Shown: positions 19,226 through 26,232 of the stretch, in pieces | How positions within the stretch are numbered: position 1 is the first letter of the stretch | Layout: each line of letters begins with the position of its first letter | From: Chloroflexota bacterium | GTDB taxonomy: Bacteria > Chloroflexota > Limnocylindria > P2-11E | Assembly (NCBI GenBank): GCA_027310565.1 | Contig: DAIDAP010000037.1 | Coordinates: forward strand, 382,163-446,162 | Direction: 5' to 3' | DNA length: 64,000 bases | Program-made: the position numbers and the translations under genes | The notes under the pieces: model-generated | The model's input: the letters and a program-made list of their open reading frames with translations, nothing else | The model's database searches: none | What the model was told of the DNA's origin: nothing

Positions 19226-19253
19226 TCCGCACGCGCATCGCGGCCGTGGCGCG

Positions 19254-20729
19254 CACGCGCACGGTCACGCGCACGACGAGCACGAGAGCGCGGGCAACGT
19301 CGCGTCCGAGCGCTTCGAGCTGCGCACCGTCGGCATCGACATCGGCACGACGACCTCGCACCTCATCTTCTCGCGCCTCGTGCTCGAGCGTCAGGGCATC
19401 CGCCTCTCGAGCGCGTACAGCGTCGTGGAGCGGCACGTGGTCGAACGCTCCGACGTGGCGCTGACCCCGTACGCGTCGGCCGGCCGCATCGACACCGGCG
19501 CGCTCGCGGCGCTCATCGACCGCGCGTACGCCGCCGCGGGCCGCACCCCCGCGGACGTCGACACCGGCGCGGTCATCGCGACCGGCGAGGCCGCGCGCAG
19601 GGAGAACGCCGCGGAGATCGTCGGGCTCTTCTCGGCACAGTCGGGGAAGTTCGTGTGCGCGACGGCGGGTCACCACCTCGAGGCGCTGCTCGCGGCGCAC
19701 GGCTCGGGCGCGGTCGCGCGGAGCCGCTCCGCCGGGACGCCCCTGGTGCTGAACGTCGACATCGGCGGCGGCACCACGAAGCTGGCCGTGTGCCGCGACG
19801 GGACCGTCCGCGAGACCGCCGCGCTGGACGTCGGCGCGCGCCTCGTGTCGTGGGACGGCGACGGCCGCGTGCGCTCGGTCACGCGCGCCGGCGAGCGGGT
19901 GCTCGCGCTGGCCGGCGCGCACGTCGCGCCGGGCCACGTTCCGGACCGCGCCACGCTCGCGACGGTCGCGGACACGATCGCCGACCTGGCGCTGCGCGCG
20001 GCGGACGGCCGGCCGCTCGAGCGGGACCTCTGGCTCACCGAGCCGCTGCGGGAGCGCGGCCCGTTCGCGGCGCTCGTCATCAGCGGGGGCGTCGGCGAGT
20101 ACGTGAACGGGAACGAGACGCGCGAGTACGGCGACCTCGGCAAGCTCGTCGGCGAGGCGCTCGCGCGGCGACTCGGCGGTCACACGGTGCTGCGCGCCGT
20201 CGAATCGATCCGCGCCACGTGCATCGGCGCCGCGCAGTACACGATCCAGGTGAGCGGCGACACGCTCTTCCTCACGCACCCCGAGCTGCTCCCCCTCCGC
20301 GACCTCGCCGCCGTCCCGATCCACCCCGAGCGCGCCGACTCGGCCGCCATCGCACGCGCGGTGCGCGCCGGGATCCAGCGCCTGGACCGTGAGGACGGGC
20401 GGTTCGCGGTCGCCGTCCACTGGGCGCACGGCACGGCCTACGCCTCGCTGCGCGAGCTCTGCGCGGGCATCCACGAGGGCGTGCACGGCGTCCTGCGCGA
20501 CGAGCTCCCGCTCGTCGTCGTGATCGACGCGGACGTCGCGGGGATCGTCGGGCAGGCCCTGCGCGACGAGCTCGGCCTGCGCTCGCCGATCGTGTGTGTC
20601 GATCAGATACGGCTGTCGGACCTCGACTTCATCGACGTGGGCGCGCTCGTCCCCGAGCGCGGCGTCGTGCCGGTCGTGGTGAAGAGCCTGGTGTTCTCCT
20701 CATCGGGATCGTCGCGGCCGGACGCCTGA
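19254..20729 (+). CDS. EutA-like ammonia-lyase reactivating factor; start unresolved
   Basis: ASKHA-fold ATPase matching EutA, which reactivates adenosylcobalamin-dependent ethanolamine ammonia-lyase. The phosphate-loop motif VGIDIGTTTSHLIFSRL, TGAVIATGEAARRENA, the second loop LNVDIGGGTTKLAV and ALVISGGVGEY are all present. No ATG, GTG or TTG occurs in frame between the upstream stop (19194) and the GTG at 19380, yet VGIDIG is encoded before 19380. The His-rich stretch encoded from 19254 would join a GTG at 19246 if two bases of the GCGCGC run were absent, so a frameshift or sequence error is likely. No eutBC genes lie in the window. The 3' end overlaps the convergent M20 gene by 30 bp. Confidence 0.8.
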   Translation, partial: HAHGHAHDEHESAGNVASERFELRTVGIDIGTTTSHLIFSRLVLERQGIRLSSAYSVVERHVVERSDVALTPYASAGRIDTGALAALIDRAYAAAGRTPADVDTGAVIATGEAARRENAAEIVGLFSAQSGKFVCATAGHHLEALLAAHGSGAVARSRSAGTPLVLNVDIGGGTTKLAVCRDGTVRETAALDVGARLVSWDGDGRVRSVTRAGERVLALAGAHVAPGHVPDRATLATVADTIADLALRAADGRPLERDLWLTEPLRERGPFAALVISGGVGEYVNGNETREYGDLGKLVGEALARRLGGHTVLRAVESIRATCIGAAQYTIQVSGDTLFLTHPELLPLRDLAAVPIHPERADSAAIARAVRAGIQRLDREDGRFAVAVHWAHGTAYASLRELCAGIHEGVHGVLRDELPLVVVIDADVAGIVGQALRDELGLRSPIVCVDQIRLSDLDFIDVGALVPERGVVPVVVKSLVFSSSGSSRPDA

Positions 20730-22079
20730 CCCGCGTGCTCGGCGTCCGACGCTCCGCGCGGACGCGACGGACGCCGCGATGTCGCGGTTGACGTGCGCGC
20801 CGAGCGGGACCTGGGCGGGGCGGTCCTGGTCGCAGAGGTCCAGCGCGATGCGCGCGTACACGACCGCCGCGTCCGTGAGGTCCTTCACCGTGAACGACTT
20901 CGTCGATGCGTGGCTCCGCGCTCGCGGCGCGTAGGACACCGCGGGGATGCCGAGCTCGTTGAACGCGTTCGTGTCGCGCCACATGCTCGTCACCGCATCG
21001 GCCACGATCGCCGGCGGCGTCGGGAACGTCCGCGTGTGGCAGCGGCGGATCGTCTCGATGAGCCGCTCGGCGCCCTTCGCCTCGAATCCCGGGCGATAGA
21101 GGTACAGCTCGACCTCGCCGGAGACGCCGATCGACCGCAGCACGCCGCGCAGCTCGTCGCGAACGTCCATCGGGTTCGCGCCGGGCAGGATGCGCGTGTC
21201 CACGTAGAAGGCGGCGACCTGCGGCGCGCTCGTGACGTTGAACGGGTAGCCGCCGCGGATCGCGTTCACGCTCGCCTTCGGCACGATCGTCCCCGCCTCG
21301 GAGCGGTACGTGTTGCGCCGCTCGTAGTCGTACGCCCAGCGCTCGAACGCCTCGATCACGGCGGCGGCGCGCACGATGGCGTTCGGCGAGTCCGCCATGC
21401 CGGTCGGGCGTGGCAGGTATGGCGTGTAGTAGCGGGGTCCGTCGGAGCGCACGGCGACCTTGAAGTGCGCCTTGCCGGGCTCGATGCCGACGATGCCGAA
21501 CCCCGTGCCCTCCGCCACGAGCGCGTAGTCGGCGACCACGCCGTGCGTGACCATGAAGCGGACGCCGAGATCCTTGGACAGGTACGCCGGCCCCTGGAAC
21601 TCCTCGATCGGCTCGCGCGAGATCTCCCCGGCGACCGCGCTCACGATGAGGTCGCCCTTGAGCCGCACCCCGGACGCCCTGATGGCCTTCGCCGCGACGA
21701 GGAACGCGGCCATGGGCCCCTTGTCGTTCACCACGCCGTCCCCGTGGATCGAATCGCCCTCGACCCAGGCCGAGTGGTAGAGCGGATCGCGCGGATCGCG
21801 CGCCGACCAGACCGCGTCGGGCCGGAGCGTCGTGTCGAGGTGCGCGTTGAAGCACAGGCTGTAGCCGCCGCCGGTGCCCGGCAGCGTCGCGGCCACGTTG
21901 AAGCGCTCGGGGACGAGCGCGTACTTCCTCGGCGCGAAGCCCTCCCGCTCGAGCCAGTCGTACACGAACTGACCCGCCGGGCCCTCGCTCCCCGTCGGGC
22001 TGTCGATGTTGCCCAGCGCCAGCGCGAGGTCCACGACCTCCTGCGGATCGATCCGTGCCGCGACATCGCTACTCGCCAT
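20700..22079 (-). CDS. M20-family metallo-amidohydrolase
   Basis: Zinc-dependent amidohydrolase of the M20 family (ArgE/DapE/carboxypeptidase G2-like), 459 aa. Visible zinc and catalytic motifs are NAHLDTT, GDGVVNDKGPMAAF and SAVAGEISREP, the last holding the glutamate that acts as base in the GEI variant of the family. The lid domain follows (about 200-320), and HTRTFPT...TSMWRDTNAFNELGIP leads to a late metal ligand. It lies last in the minus-strand operon SBP-LLM-bicupin-AAA-MFS-M20 and overlaps the MFS gene by 11 bp. It probably removes an acyl or carbamoyl group from an amino compound; the substrate is not assigned. Confidence 0.88.
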   Translation of the reverse strand: MASSDVAARIDPQEVVDLALALGNIDSPTGSEGPAGQFVYDWLEREGFAPRKYALVPERFNVAATLPGTGGGYSLCFNAHLDTTLRPDAVWSARDPRDPLYHSAWVEGDSIHGDGVVNDKGPMAAFLVAAKAIRASGVRLKGDLIVSAVAGEISREPIEEFQGPAYLSKDLGVRFMVTHGVVADYALVAEGTGFGIVGIEPGKAHFKVAVRSDGPRYYTPYLPRPTGMADSPNAIVRAAAVIEAFERWAYDYERRNTYRSEAGTIVPKASVNAIRGGYPFNVTSAPQVAAFYVDTRILPGANPMDVRDELRGVLRSIGVSGEVELYLYRPGFEAKGAERLIETIRRCHTRTFPTPPAIVADAVTSMWRDTNAFNELGIPAVSYAPRARSHASTKSFTVKDLTDAAVVYARIALDLCDQDRPAQVPLGAHVNRDIAASVASARSVGRRARGSGVRPRRSR

Positions 22080-23322
22080 CCGTCGCTCCCTCCCCCACCG
22101 TGATCGCCGCCGGGTCCCTCGGGGCCCGCTCGTCCACGCGCCCCGGGACGCCCAGGAACGCCGCCGCGGATGCGCCGACGAGGATCGCCGCGGCGACGAC
22201 GATGGAGGCCTGCGCGCTCGCCGCGTCCATGATGGCGGCGAGCAGCACCGGGCCGACGAACGCGCCGAGGTCGGCCGAGAAGCGGTAGCCGGCGAGCACC
22301 TTCGTCCGCTGCGTGCTCGGGACGACCTCCGACAGGAGCGCCGTCTGCGAGCTCGAGAAGAAGTCGCCGAATCCGATGAGCGCGGAGAAGAGCAGGAACG
22401 TCGCGAGGTCGCGGGTGAGCAGGAAGGCGAGATCGCCGGCGGCGACCGCGACGAGCCCGCTCATGATGACGCGGCGCCTCCCGATCCGGTCCCCGAGCAT
22501 CCCCCCGGGGGTGGCGACGAACAGCCCGGCGACCGACATGAGCGCGATCGCGGTCGCGATCGACACGCCGCCCAGTCCGAGCGACGTCGCCGCGTAGAGC
22601 GGCAGCACCGTGTTGCGGAACCCGTGGCGGTTCACCATGTTCGCGGTGACGCCGAGGCTCGTCGCGCCGATCGCAACGGCGCGCGACCGTCCGTGGAGGA
22701 CGCGCCGCTCGCCGTGCGCGCCCGTCGCCGCCGCCGCGCCCGGACGGGGGCGGACGCGCGCGAGGACCGGAAGGAGCGTCGAGGCCGCGACGAGCGCGAG
22801 CGCGGTCGTCACCGCGAAGGTCGCTCGCCACCCGAACGCGGCGCCGACGACGCCTCCCAGGAGCGGGTAGGCGGCGATGCCGACGTTGTTCGCGACGTGG
22901 AAGAAGCTCATGACCTTCCCTCGGTTCGCGGTGCTCGCGACCGCCGCGAGCGCCGCGAGGCACACCGTGGACACGAGCGACACCGCGACGCCCGCCCCGA
23001 CGCGCGCGGCGATGAGGACCTCGACGGTCGTCGCGTTCAGGCCGACGAGCGACGCCGCCACGAGCAGCAGGAGCCCGACGACCACGACGGCCCGCTGGCC
23101 GACGGCGTCGATGACGAATCCCGCCGGCAGGTCCGTGAGGAGGCGCGCGAGGCCGTACGCGCCGACGATGACGCCGGCCGTGGCGATGCTCACCCCGAAG
23201 TCGTCGCGGATGTCCGGCAGGAGCGGCGTGAGGATGTTCGTCGCCGCGATCACGAGGAAGAGCGAGACCGCGACCAGGTACGCGTCGCGCGGGATCCGCG
23301 TCCCGCCCTCGCGCGCGCTCAT
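22069..23322 (-). CDS. MFS transporter
   Basis: A 417-aa major facilitator with about twelve helices. The loop 2-3 motif is GLARLLTDLPAGFVIDAVGQR and the matching loop 8-9 motif GGMLGDRIGRRRVI. A charged central loop (residues about 195-215) divides the halves. It starts at an ATG overlapping the AAA+ gene stop (ATGA). The substrate is unknown; context suggests import of, or export of products from, the compound handled by this operon. Confidence 0.9.
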   Translation of the reverse strand: MSAREGGTRIPRDAYLVAVSLFLVIAATNILTPLLPDIRDDFGVSIATAGVIVGAYGLARLLTDLPAGFVIDAVGQRAVVVVGLLLLVAASLVGLNATTVEVLIAARVGAGVAVSLVSTVCLAALAAVASTANRGKVMSFFHVANNVGIAAYPLLGGVVGAAFGWRATFAVTTALALVAASTLLPVLARVRPRPGAAAATGAHGERRVLHGRSRAVAIGATSLGVTANMVNRHGFRNTVLPLYAATSLGLGGVSIATAIALMSVAGLFVATPGGMLGDRIGRRRVIMSGLVAVAAGDLAFLLTRDLATFLLFSALIGFGDFFSSSQTALLSEVVPSTQRTKVLAGYRFSADLGAFVGPVLLAAIMDAASAQASIVVAAAILVGASAAAFLGVPGRVDERAPRDPAAITVGEGATDGE

Positions 23323-24188
23323 TCGCCGCCCGCGAGCACCGCCGCGACGTCCGCGACCCGCAGGCGCGACGGATCCACGGCGAGCTCGCGACGCGACGCG
23401 AGGGCCCGCAGCACGAGCTTGCGGATGCGGCGCGCGTCGAGGCGTGTGGCGACGCAGGCCTCGGCGAGGCGGCCGAGCGCCGCGTCGTCGATGACGGCGT
23501 CCTCGACGACCTGGGTCATGGTGTCGCGGAGGATCCGGGCGCTCGCCTCGGCGTCGGGGAGCCCCATCGTCTCGACCAGGTCGGCGCGCGAGACGAACGC
23601 CGGGTCGACGCCCGCGGCGTGGTTCGTGGTCGCGACGCACAGCACGTTCGCGCACCGCCGCGAGAGCTCGTCGACACCCTCGAGCACCGCGTCGGTCGCG
23701 CGATGGACGTCGACCGGATTCGTCTCCAGCGACGCCCCGGCGCGGTCCACGGCCAGCGCCTCGACCTCGTCGAGCAGGACGATCGTCGGGCGGCCGCGCG
23801 CGGCGAGGTCGGGCAGCGTCCGCTCGAAGAGGCGGGCGACGCTCCGCTGGCTCTCGCCGAGGAGCTGCGACGGGAACGCGTGCGCGTCGATCTCGACGAA
23901 GAGGACCGGCTCGCCGAGCGCCCGGGCGGTCTGGTCGGCGAGGCCGCCCGCGAGCGTCGTCTTCCCCGTGCCCGGCGGGCCCGAGAGGATGACGAGGCCG
24001 TGCACCGGCAGGCGCACCGCGTCGACGCCCGCCCGGTGCCGCAGCGCGAACAGCGCGAAGTTGAGCAGACGCTCCTTCAGCCCGGCGGGCGCGACGATGC
24101 GCGTCCAGCGGCTCTCCCAGCCGGCGTCGGGCAGCTCGGTGAGCGCGACGACGCCCTCGACGCCGGGGGGCGGCTGCACTGGCGGCAT
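23319..24188 (-). CDS. TRIP13/Pch2-like AAA+ ATPase
   Basis: A 289-aa AAA+ ATPase. Walker A GPPGTGKT is at residues 70-77, Walker B IVLLDEVEAL at about 136-145, sensor 1 CVATTNH at about 184-190. The stretches FVEIDAHAF, LLGESQRSVARLFERTL and DPAFVSRADL follow the order and wording of TRIP13/Pch2, the ATPase that unfolds HORMA-domain proteins. The N-terminal 65 residues are a short substrate-handling region. Bacterial TRIP13 homologues are known from CBASS defence islands with HORMA and nucleotidyltransferase genes, but none is encoded here. Instead it sits between bicupin and MFS genes in a catabolic operon, suggesting another client protein. Confidence 0.85.
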   Translation of the reverse strand: MPPVQPPPGVEGVVALTELPDAGWESRWTRIVAPAGLKERLLNFALFALRHRAGVDAVRLPVHGLVILSGPPGTGKTTLAGGLADQTARALGEPVLFVEIDAHAFPSQLLGESQRSVARLFERTLPDLAARGRPTIVLLDEVEALAVDRAGASLETNPVDVHRATDAVLEGVDELSRRCANVLCVATTNHAAGVDPAFVSRADLVETMGLPDAEASARILRDTMTQVVEDAVIDDAALGRLAEACVATRLDARRIRKLVLRALASRRELAVDPSRLRVADVAAVLAGGE

Positions 24189-24196
24189 CCGGCGCC

Positions 24197-25240
24197 CTAT
24201 TCGGGACGGCCCTCGAAGTGATCGGGCCACACCACGCCGGAGAGGTCCGGCGCGTCCAGCCGCGGCGGCTCCTCGAAGAGGTCCAGCGGGTCGAGGAGGA
24301 TGCGGATCATGTCGTAGAGCGCGTCGAAGTTGTGGACGCGGATGAGACGCGCCGTCCGGTCCCGCGAGTCGTTGAAGTGCTGGTGCCACGCCCAGTGATC
24401 GACCACGATGAGGTCGCCCTGCTCCCACGTGTGGGACGCGCCGTCGATCTCGCTGTGGCCGTTCCCGGACACGACGTAGAGGAAGGCTTCGCCGCCGTGT
24501 CGGTGGCGCGACTGGTACAGCCCGGGGGCGAGCTCGTGCATGACCGCGGAGAGGCCCGCGGTGTGATAGCCGATCGACCGGTCGACGAGGAAGAGGCTGC
24601 GCGCGCCACGCTTTGTGACGAGACCACGGACGTCGTCGAACCGCGTGATGAGCCGCGCGCTCTCGGTGCCCTCCCACTGCCGCCAGAGGCGCTGCGCCCG
24701 CCGCGCGTACGGATCGTCGCCGGGTATCGAGGCGATCTGCTTCGGTCGCGGCGGGAGCTCCCGCACCGGCGTGTCGCCGCCGTCCTCGAGGAGCGCGACG
24801 CCGAACTGCTCGAGCATCGGCTGCACGCTCCAGGTATGGAACACGGCCGGGCGGTCCTCGTCGTTCCCGTGGCGGTGCCACGCCCACGACGGCAGGTGGA
24901 GCGTGTCCCACGGCTTCCAGTCGAGCCGCACGCCGTCGATCTCCGTCCACCCGCGGCCGGACTCGACGAACGCGATCGCGTCCCACGAATGGCGGTGGAC
25001 CGTCGTCGTCGTGTGCGGCGCGATCTCGTGGATCGTCGCGTCGAGGTTCATCGTCGGGCGGTCGCCGTCGCGGCCCGCGAACACGCCGCGCCGCATCCGC
25101 CGGCTCGGCACGTCGTGCATGACGACGTCCCTTCGCTTGAGGACGGTCTTGTGGTAGCGCTTCCACTCCTCGAGGAGCGACTCGCGGCGCTGCTTCTGGA
25201 CTTCGTAGTGGGTGACCTTCGTGGTCGTGACCGTCCTCAT
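24197..25240 (-). CDS. Bicupin-type cupin protein
   Basis: A 347-aa protein with two cupin domains, like gentisate 1,2-dioxygenase and related ring-cleaving or decarboxylating bicupins. First cupin: TTTTVHRHSWDAIAFVESG and PSWAWHRHGN; second: YQSRHRHGGEAFLYVVSGNG and DHWAWHQHFND. Both have histidine sets able to bind metal. The charged N-terminus (EVQKQRRESLLEEWKRY) is probably helical. It is 8 bp upstream of the AAA+ gene and overlaps the LLM gene stop (ATGA). Oxygenase activity is possible but unproven. Confidence 0.87.
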   Translation of the reverse strand: MRTVTTTKVTHYEVQKQRRESLLEEWKRYHKTVLKRRDVVMHDVPSRRMRRGVFAGRDGDRPTMNLDATIHEIAPHTTTTVHRHSWDAIAFVESGRGWTEIDGVRLDWKPWDTLHLPSWAWHRHGNDEDRPAVFHTWSVQPMLEQFGVALLEDGGDTPVRELPPRPKQIASIPGDDPYARRAQRLWRQWEGTESARLITRFDDVRGLVTKRGARSLFLVDRSIGYHTAGLSAVMHELAPGLYQSRHRHGGEAFLYVVSGNGHSEIDGASHTWEQGDLIVVDHWAWHQHFNDSRDRTARLIRVHNFDALYDMIRILLDPLDLFEEPPRLDAPDLSGVVWPDHFEGRPE

Positions 25241-26232
25241 CGCGCCGCCGCCGCCGGCTGCCGGACCCTGGGGAGGACCTCGGTCGCGAGCACCTCGATC
25301 TGCCTCAGGTAGTCGGGGAACCGCATGCGGAGGTCGAACACGAGGAGGTCGCACCCGAGCTCCTGGTAGCGCCGGATGCCGCGGACGATGTCGTCGGGCG
25401 TCCCCGCGAGGATCGAGCCGTCGAGCTCCTCGATCCGCGTGAACTCGCCGGACTTCGGCTTCACCCAGAACTTCTGCGCGTTCGCGTTCTTGATGAGGCC
25501 GGGCACGTTCAGCCGTTCGAGCGCCTCCTTCGCCGTGTCGGCGATGCTCGTCACCGGCACCGCGCCCGTCATGATCATCGGCTTGCCCTGCTCCGCGCAC
25601 ATCTCGCGGATCTTGTTCATACGGAGGCGGTACGTCGGGAAGGTGATGCGCCCCGGCAGCCAGCCCTCGCAGAAGTCCACCGCGAGCCGCGCCGCGGCGG
25701 GCGTCGCGCCGCCCCACCACACCGGGACCGGGTGGAGCGGCTGCGGCTTCAGGTCGACGTCGTCGAACGTGTAGCGGTCGCTCTTCCACTCGACCGTCTC
25801 GCCGGCCCACAGGCGCCGGGCGATGAGGACCTGCTCCCTCATCATCTGAACGCGGTCCTCCTCGGCCTGGCCGATGACCGCGAACTCGTGGTCGAACGTC
25901 CCGGCGCCGATCCCGAGGTCGAACGTCCGCCGCGTCGTCCACGAGAGCGACGCGACGCTGTAGGCCATGAGGATCGGGTGGCGGAACGGGATGATCGTCG
26001 CGGCGCCGAGGCCGATGCGCTCGGTCACGCCGGCGAGGTACGAGAGCGTGATGAACGGCTCGATGAACGTGCGGTCGGTGCCCTCCATCCCGTGAGGGTG
26101 GAAGACGAGGTGGTCGCGGACCCACAGCGAATCGAAGCCGTGGCGCTCGGCGAGGCGCGCGCCCTCGACGAGCAGGTCCTGATCCGCCTCGAGCCCGAAG
26201 TGGGGCACGAGGAGGCCGTAGCGGGTCGTCAT
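25237..26232 (-). CDS. LLM-class flavin-dependent oxidoreductase
   Basis: Luciferase-like monooxygenase family protein, 331 aa. Landmarks are RYGLLVPHFGLE at the start, ERHGFDSLWVRDHLVF, ERIGLGAATIIPFRHPI and, in the middle, PQPLHPVPVWWGGATPAAARL. The cofactor may be FMN or F420; an F420-reducing enzyme is encoded at 35232-36242, which makes F420 plausible. AAGGAG lies 7-8 nt before the ATG at 26232, just after the hairpin that separates this gene from the binding-protein gene. Likely a monooxygenase or reductase acting on the imported compound. Confidence 0.9.
   Translation of the reverse strand: MTTRYGLLVPHFGLEADQDLLVEGARLAERHGFDSLWVRDHLVFHPHGMEGTDRTFIEPFITLSYLAGVTERIGLGAATIIPFRHPILMAYSVASLSWTTRRTFDLGIGAGTFDHEFAVIGQAEEDRVQMMREQVLIARRLWAGETVEWKSDRYTFDDVDLKPQPLHPVPVWWGGATPAAARLAVDFCEGWLPGRITFPTYRLRMNKIREMCAEQGKPMIMTGAVPVTSIADTAKEALERLNVPGLIKNANAQKFWVKPKSGEFTRIEELDGSILAGTPDDIVRGIRRYQELGCDLLVFDLRMRFPDYLRQIEVLATEVLPRVRQPAAAAR

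Follow-up and report, generated by a model that had tools for sequence, protein, structure and literature searches.

TRIP13/Pch2 is an ATP-driven protein-unfolding machine known for reshaping signalling proteins of the HORMA type in meiosis, mitosis and phage defence. Work on it, in meiosis, at the spindle checkpoint and in CBASS, has treated it as a remodeller specific to HORMA. The eukaryotic protein takes HORMA clients, with p31comet as the adaptor for Mad2. In bacteria, the closest described system is the Cap6/TRIP13 of type III CBASS (Trip13 of E. coli MS115-1, PDB 6p8v), whose loci also hold HORMA, CD-NTase and effector genes. A single Arg finger and a sensor 2 Arg are the traits that separate TRIP13 from classic remodellers (PMC4439613). 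Here we describe a AAA+ ATPase gene of a Chloroflexota bacterium that belongs to this family and whose product, judging from comparative sequence evidence, probably acts on the adjoining cupin dioxygenase-type enzyme instead of a HORMA protein.

The window, the whole 64,000-nucleotide stretch that was analysed, carries the ATPase gene on the minus strand, from 24188 down to 23319, as an earlier note on this DNA had stated. The 289-residue product (P0001; AAA hereafter) contains all the motifs quoted in that note, as follows: FVEIDAHAF, LLGESQRSVARLF, LLDEVEAL and DPAFVSRADL. The note's recognition of a TRIP13/Pch2 pattern is borne out by profile, fold and phylogeny. The PADLOC TRIP13 profile PDLC00915 matches residues 11–284, nearly the full length, at E = 1.7e-89, and general AAA families match far more weakly. 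As a single sequence, the AAA has C. elegans PCH-2 as its top PDB match (5.8e-28), and a 32-sequence family profile ranks PCH-2/TRIP13 (1.4e-43) ahead of CDC48 (2e-34), with an alignment that takes in the LP...W (LPxxxxxxxW) N-linker ahead of the AAA domain. The AlphaFold2 model (mean pLDDT 90.0) has 6p8v, the E. coli CBASS HORMA:CdnC:Trip13 structure, as its first PDB fold match (1.3e-16), and ranks 1–15 are all TRIP13/Pch2 chains. Profile, tree and fold thus speak against a generic AAA family, the outcome that the earlier note had named as refuting its claim. A CbbX or MoxR identity was also rejected, as neither family is among the NCBIfam matches of the AAA at E 0.01; the related profiles EccA (2.3e-5) and GvpN (2.4e-4) match weakly against 1.7e-89 for TRIP13.

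Walker A, GPPGTGKT (residues 70–77; 23958–23981, minus strand), has G70 and G73–K76 invariant among 32 homologues, and Walker B, VLLDEVEAL (residues 137–145; 23754–23780, minus strand), has D140, the catalytic E141 and E143 invariant. Sequence comparison identifies a single, TRIP13-like Arg finger in SRADL (23577–23591, minus strand), whose R201 is invariant across the cupin-linked clade, CBASS and eukaryotic TRIP13s. The sensor 2 segment, DARRIRK (23418–23438, minus strand), contains R253, which is invariant in the cupin and CBASS clades. The AAA therefore has one Arg finger, lacks the other conserved Arg and keeps the sensor 2 Arg, and CBASS Cap6/TRIP13 has the same Arg finger and sensor 2 Arg. 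Pore loop 1 is different. The sequence HAFPSQLLGESQ (residues 103–114; 23847–23882, minus strand) follows a clade-specific pattern, HAFPSx[ML]LGESQR, unlike that of CBASS (e.g., HALTSSAMGKTQ) or eukaryotic (HSLFSKWFSESG) TRIP13. The cupin clade is set apart from CBASS by E112, mostly K or Q in CBASS, by L110 and by F105–P106. Eukaryotic TRIP13/Pch2 is of the same family by sequence and fold, the N-linker included, but its pore loop reads HSLFSKWFSES and its N-terminal domain is longer.

In a maximum-likelihood tree, all 44 cupin-linked AAAs make up a single clade (97/86) that neighbours 11 CBASS TRIP13s, and the 58-row TRIP13 group of cupin, CBASS and eukaryotic members is separated from CDC48, PAN, FtsH and other AAAs at 100/99. 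The deep branches of the TRIP13 tree are moderately supported (90/53 and 91/68). Members that use HORMA branch off on either side of the cupin clade, which makes HORMA use the probable ancestral state and cupin use the derived one, subject to that moderate deep support. The suggestion of a repurposed defence part likewise fits the sister position to CBASS TRIP13, with the same reservation about deep branches. An archaeal TRIP13-like AAA on a very long branch, followed by several unannotated small proteins, was seen on a Haloarcula halophila plasmid (L072, 5935–9700) and is possibly a further TRIP13 system.

The cupin-linked loci and their CBASS sisters differ sharply in gene content. Plasmid homologues with 43–50% identity to the AAA lie in type III CBASS operons ordered AAA-HORMA-HORMA-cyclase-effector; several homologues in this identity range, the sister clade and the closest fold make CBASS the nearest known system. 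The cupin-type loci lack HORMA, CD-NTase and effector and have a cupin enzyme as partner. Locally built HORMA and CD-NTase profiles match 10/10 CBASS loci and no cupin locus. None of the 19 cupin-type genomes searched has a bacHORMA_2, which is present in both CBASS-type Chloroflexota controls. The earlier description of the AAA as lacking HORMA and CD-NTase was therefore right: neither is found within about 10 kb on each side, and no bacHORMA_2 is found in the whole genome from which the window comes. A separate HORMA-free branch, also suggested there, is upheld by the single clade together with this absence. Identity as type III CBASS (Cap6) was rejected, since HORMA and CD-NTase are missing from all cupin-type loci and present in the 10/10 controls. 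Viral contigs hold generic AAA proteins and no close relatives of the AAA, and nothing pointed to the window locus having come from a phage or a defence system. The AAA is a genuine TRIP13/Pch2-family member by descent for which no HORMA substrate was found; as having a HORMA substrate is a functional and not a descent criterion, we file it as a family member that lacks the substrate established for the family.

The genes around the AAA run, all on the minus strand, in the order LLM, bicupin, AAA, MFS, M20, as follows. An LLM-class (luciferase-like) oxidoreductase (25237–26232), an operon neighbour in Chloroflexota, precedes the bicupin (P0002, 347 residues; 24197–25240), the proposed client, which has a gentisate/salicylate 1,2-dioxygenase fold; downstream of the AAA are an MFS transporter (22069–23322) and an M20-family hydrolase (20700–22079). 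The claim of one operon with 4-bp overlaps holds for the LLM/bicupin and AAA/MFS junctions, but MFS/M20 overlap by 11 bp and an 8-bp gap separates bicupin and AAA.

The constant partner of the AAA is a cupin. The bicupin adjoins the AAA in 41/45 distinct loci, directly upstream on the same strand in 40 and convergent in 1. Single-cupin genes take the upstream place in 2/45, and the remaining 2/45 comprise a locus that ends at a contig edge and L028, whose bicupin is elsewhere in the genome. A cupin is thus not adjacent in only 1 of the 44 evaluable loci, L028, and the distant bicupin of that genome carries the same Thr-x-Thr tail as the linked ones. The hosts belong to Chloroflexota, Actinomycetota and Betaproteobacteria, with Micromonospora yasonensis DSM 45980 and Acrocarpospora pleiomorpha NBRC 16267 among the set, so the link to a cupin is kept over three phyla and is not confined to one genome, the second outcome that the earlier note had given as refuting. 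The other neighbours named in that note, the LLM flavoenzyme, MFS and M20 genes, are not supported as partners, for they recur only in Chloroflexota; Actinomycetota have thiamine-diphosphate enzymes, aldehyde dehydrogenase and ABC transporters instead. After the cupin, a generic ABC ATPase is the most frequent neighbour (23/47 loci). Among the surveyed genomes, many of which are incomplete metagenome assemblies, 8 of 297 from the actinobacterial class of G323 carry a member (4 bicupin-type, 2 CBASS, 2 single-cupin), and 301 Chloroflexota genomes yielded 6 bicupin-type and 2 CBASS members. Tree distances of AAA and bicupin correlate at r = 0.89 overall and 0.62 within Actinomycetota/Betaproteobacteria, above all 2000 permutations, a correlation to which shared host ancestry contributes. 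At L173 (8841–10875) and L187 (6446–8004), one or two single-domain cupins, and no bicupin, accompany an AAA of the same clade.

On the opposite strand of the window lie a second bicupin (P0006; 18098–19225, plus strand) and an EutA-like ASKHA ATPase (P0007; 19380–20729, plus strand). The true start of the latter is upstream of 19380, for the frame runs upstream of the first listed GTG (window 19227–19380, plus strand) through a His-rich stretch and VGIDIGTTTSHL, the ATPase phosphate motif, and no ATG, GTG or TTG start is listed after the preceding stop. A second bicupin beside an EutA-like protein also recurs next to AAA–bicupin loci in other phyla (L011, L017, L019, L020, L024, L063 and L065), with the single-strand order bicupin2-EutA-like-bicupin-AAA at L019 and L024. 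By analogy, this couple is a possible second cupin–reactivase pair.

Sequence and fold comparison show that the bicupin consists of two cupins with His metal ligands and has a ring-cleaving dioxygenase fold. The ligands H82, H84 and H122, and H246, H248, E251 and H286, hardly vary among linked bicupins. Gentisate/salicylate 1,2-dioxygenases (PDB 3bu7, 4fag) share the two-cupin fold and the His ligands, but at about 20% identity, and the bicupin differs from them in its conserved N-terminal tail, its linked AAA and its metal ligands in both cupins. Its score against the curated gentisate dioxygenase model, 76 bits, is under the 442-bit cut-off.

The N-terminal segment of the bicupin (25157–25240, minus strand) comprises a tail, residues 1–10, that is predicted to be disordered (mean pLDDT 53) and a first helix, residues 11–28. 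In AAA-linked bicupins, the tail reads T-x-T-x3-H-[YW], with Thr5 and Thr7 invariant (25220–25228, minus strand, in the window). Alignment and a column scan show that this Thr-x-Thr tracks the AAA: it is present in 39/39 AAA-linked bicupins and in 0/12 copies without a linked AAA (AAA-free examples are L088, L106 and L155), the latter occupying four separate positions in a tree built without the tail. Thr5 is the sole one of 118 conserved bicupin columns that is lost in all four unlinked lineages, and Thr7 comes second. In G020 (L088), the LLM-bicupin-MFS-M20 operon is kept and the AAA is cleanly missing; the bicupin there is 79% identical and the motif is gone. Once noticed, the motif was put to a test: the L098 and L099 bicupins (about 60% identity) align only from residue 9, so they were predicted to have no AAA as a neighbour, and the regions retrieved around both indeed have none.

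The rule has limits. The whole N-terminal motif was rejected as AAA-specific, because AAA-free bicupins also keep SHYxVQxxRR; therefore, only the Thr-x-Thr part discriminates. G389 has an AAA of the cupin clade paired with two single cupins, and its bicupins lack Thr-x-Thr, so the AAA-free class means in part that no AAA is linked and not that the genome has none. No clear Thr-x-Thr is seen in the single-cupin partner of G370; the tail rule is thus not universal for the clade. Unlinked second bicupin paralogues at L152, L153 and L154 (G989, G329 and G992) have a Thr-x-Thr shifted one residue nearer HY and often lack the metal ligands of the first cupin. The bacHORMA_2 N-termini of sister CBASS operons (L066–L071, L073 and L186) are mostly Thr/Ser-rich (e.g., MTTTVSVNTYTHSV) and loosely like the bicupin tail; the resemblance was too loose and was dropped as evidence.

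Since the cupin is the constant neighbour and the tail motif changes when the AAA is absent, the AAA probably acts on the cupin enzyme. We propose, with a probability of roughly 0.58, a HORMA-independent TRIP13/Pch2 branch whose client is the upstream cupin enzyme, gripped by its tail. That the bicupin is the client of the AAA seems, on the comparative evidence, rather probable. By analogy with TRIP13, the AAA would be a ring-shaped hexamer. The pore loop 1 peculiar to the clade would grip the disordered tail at Thr-x-Thr, and ATP would drive pulling on the helix after the tail, partly opening or re-seating the dioxygenase. We infer the direct contact, the tail engagement and the hexamer; neighbouring genes and co-varying sequences are not proof of contact. 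The N-terminal region of Mad2 is required for TRIP13 binding (PMC5717197), and a tail-based grip would therefore follow the habit of the family. The cupin-clade pore loop is more acidic than the CBASS and eukaryotic forms and the bicupin tail has Lys/Arg, a complementarity that is suggestive only. Counting against the proposal, this loop is without the aromatic residue of eukaryotic TRIP13.

The purpose of such an action is more doubtful. Iron-dependent ring-cleaving dioxygenases are inactivated by iron oxidation, and for this reason reactivation is our first guess, a possible but speculative one: the AAA might use ATP to reactivate the metal-dependent ring-cleaving enzyme by releasing oxidised iron or a dead-end ligand. 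EutA is the reactivator of ethanolamine ammonia-lyase, and the bicupin2/EutA-like couples at these loci support the reactivase idea by analogy only. The rubisco activase CbbX and EutA-type reactivases resemble the proposed system in way of working only, as ATPases encoded beside the metabolic enzyme to be reactivated; CbbX is of another AAA+ family and EutA is an ASKHA protein.

Other readings of the pairing deserve weighing. The bicupin could be an adaptor or sensor that, with a small molecule or metal bound, hands another protein over to the AAA, in the way that p31comet brings Mad2 to TRIP13. Eukaryotic TRIP13 does work with an adaptor (PMC4439613), and the single-cupin partners in G389 and G370 could be sensors and not enzymes. 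The near-invariant metal ligands of linked bicupins, however, fit an enzyme, the disordered tail that tracks the AAA is the bicupin's own, and no second conserved protein is found at the loci, where the runner-up is the generic ABC ATPase; we consider an adaptor unlikely. To a similar degree, we doubt that the AAA is a one-time chaperone for cupin assembly or metal insertion, like MoxR/CbbQ/NorQ, and not an agent of repeated repair. A metal-dependent client and the operon arrangement would suit such a chaperone, but the family is TRIP13 and not MoxR, none of the genes at the loci was recognised as a VWA-domain partner, and the bicupin of G020 evidently persists without the AAA.

In a degradative or inhibitory role, the AAA would use the N-terminal tail as a degron, unfolding the bicupin so that it is degraded or, as a negative regulator, turning it off. 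The position and predicted disorder of the tail suggest such a role, as does the frequency with which tail-gripping AAA+ machines feed proteases. The loci share no conserved protease gene, though, and TRIP13-family proteins are single-ring remodellers not known to have a protease partner, which leaves this role improbable. We think it very improbable that the AAA is an orphaned or diverged CBASS part that came to sit in a catabolic operon by genomic hitch-hiking. Its sister relation to CBASS TRIP13, the identity shared with it and the match to the PADLOC model would all be expected of a relic. Set against these are one clade with a constant cupin neighbour in three phyla, invariant catalytic residues and a conserved pore loop of its own, a degree of conservation not kept by relics, and the absence of HORMA/CD-NTase from every cupin-type locus or genome searched.

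In the open-access literature, we found no description of this AAA–cupin system, no paper joining TRIP13 and cupins, and nothing on an AAA-type activase with dioxygenase reactivation. The single paper that mentions gentisate together with an AAA family ATPase and a gene cluster deals with Rhodococcus dioxin plasmids. We tentatively suggest that TRIP13/Pch2 is not dedicated to HORMA proteins and that a bacterial branch, with HORMA use probably ancestral, may have been redirected to reactivate cupin dioxygenases through a Thr-x-Thr N-terminal tag. Annotators of defence systems should be aware that cupin-linked AAAs may be labelled wrongly as TRIP13 (CBASS) genes. If the proposal is true, a branch acting on a metabolic enzyme would show what the TRIP13 fold recognises apart from HORMA, would allow the engagement of N-terminal tails by TRIP13 to be studied with just two proteins, and would bring to light a means of maintaining cupin dioxygenases at the expense of ATP.
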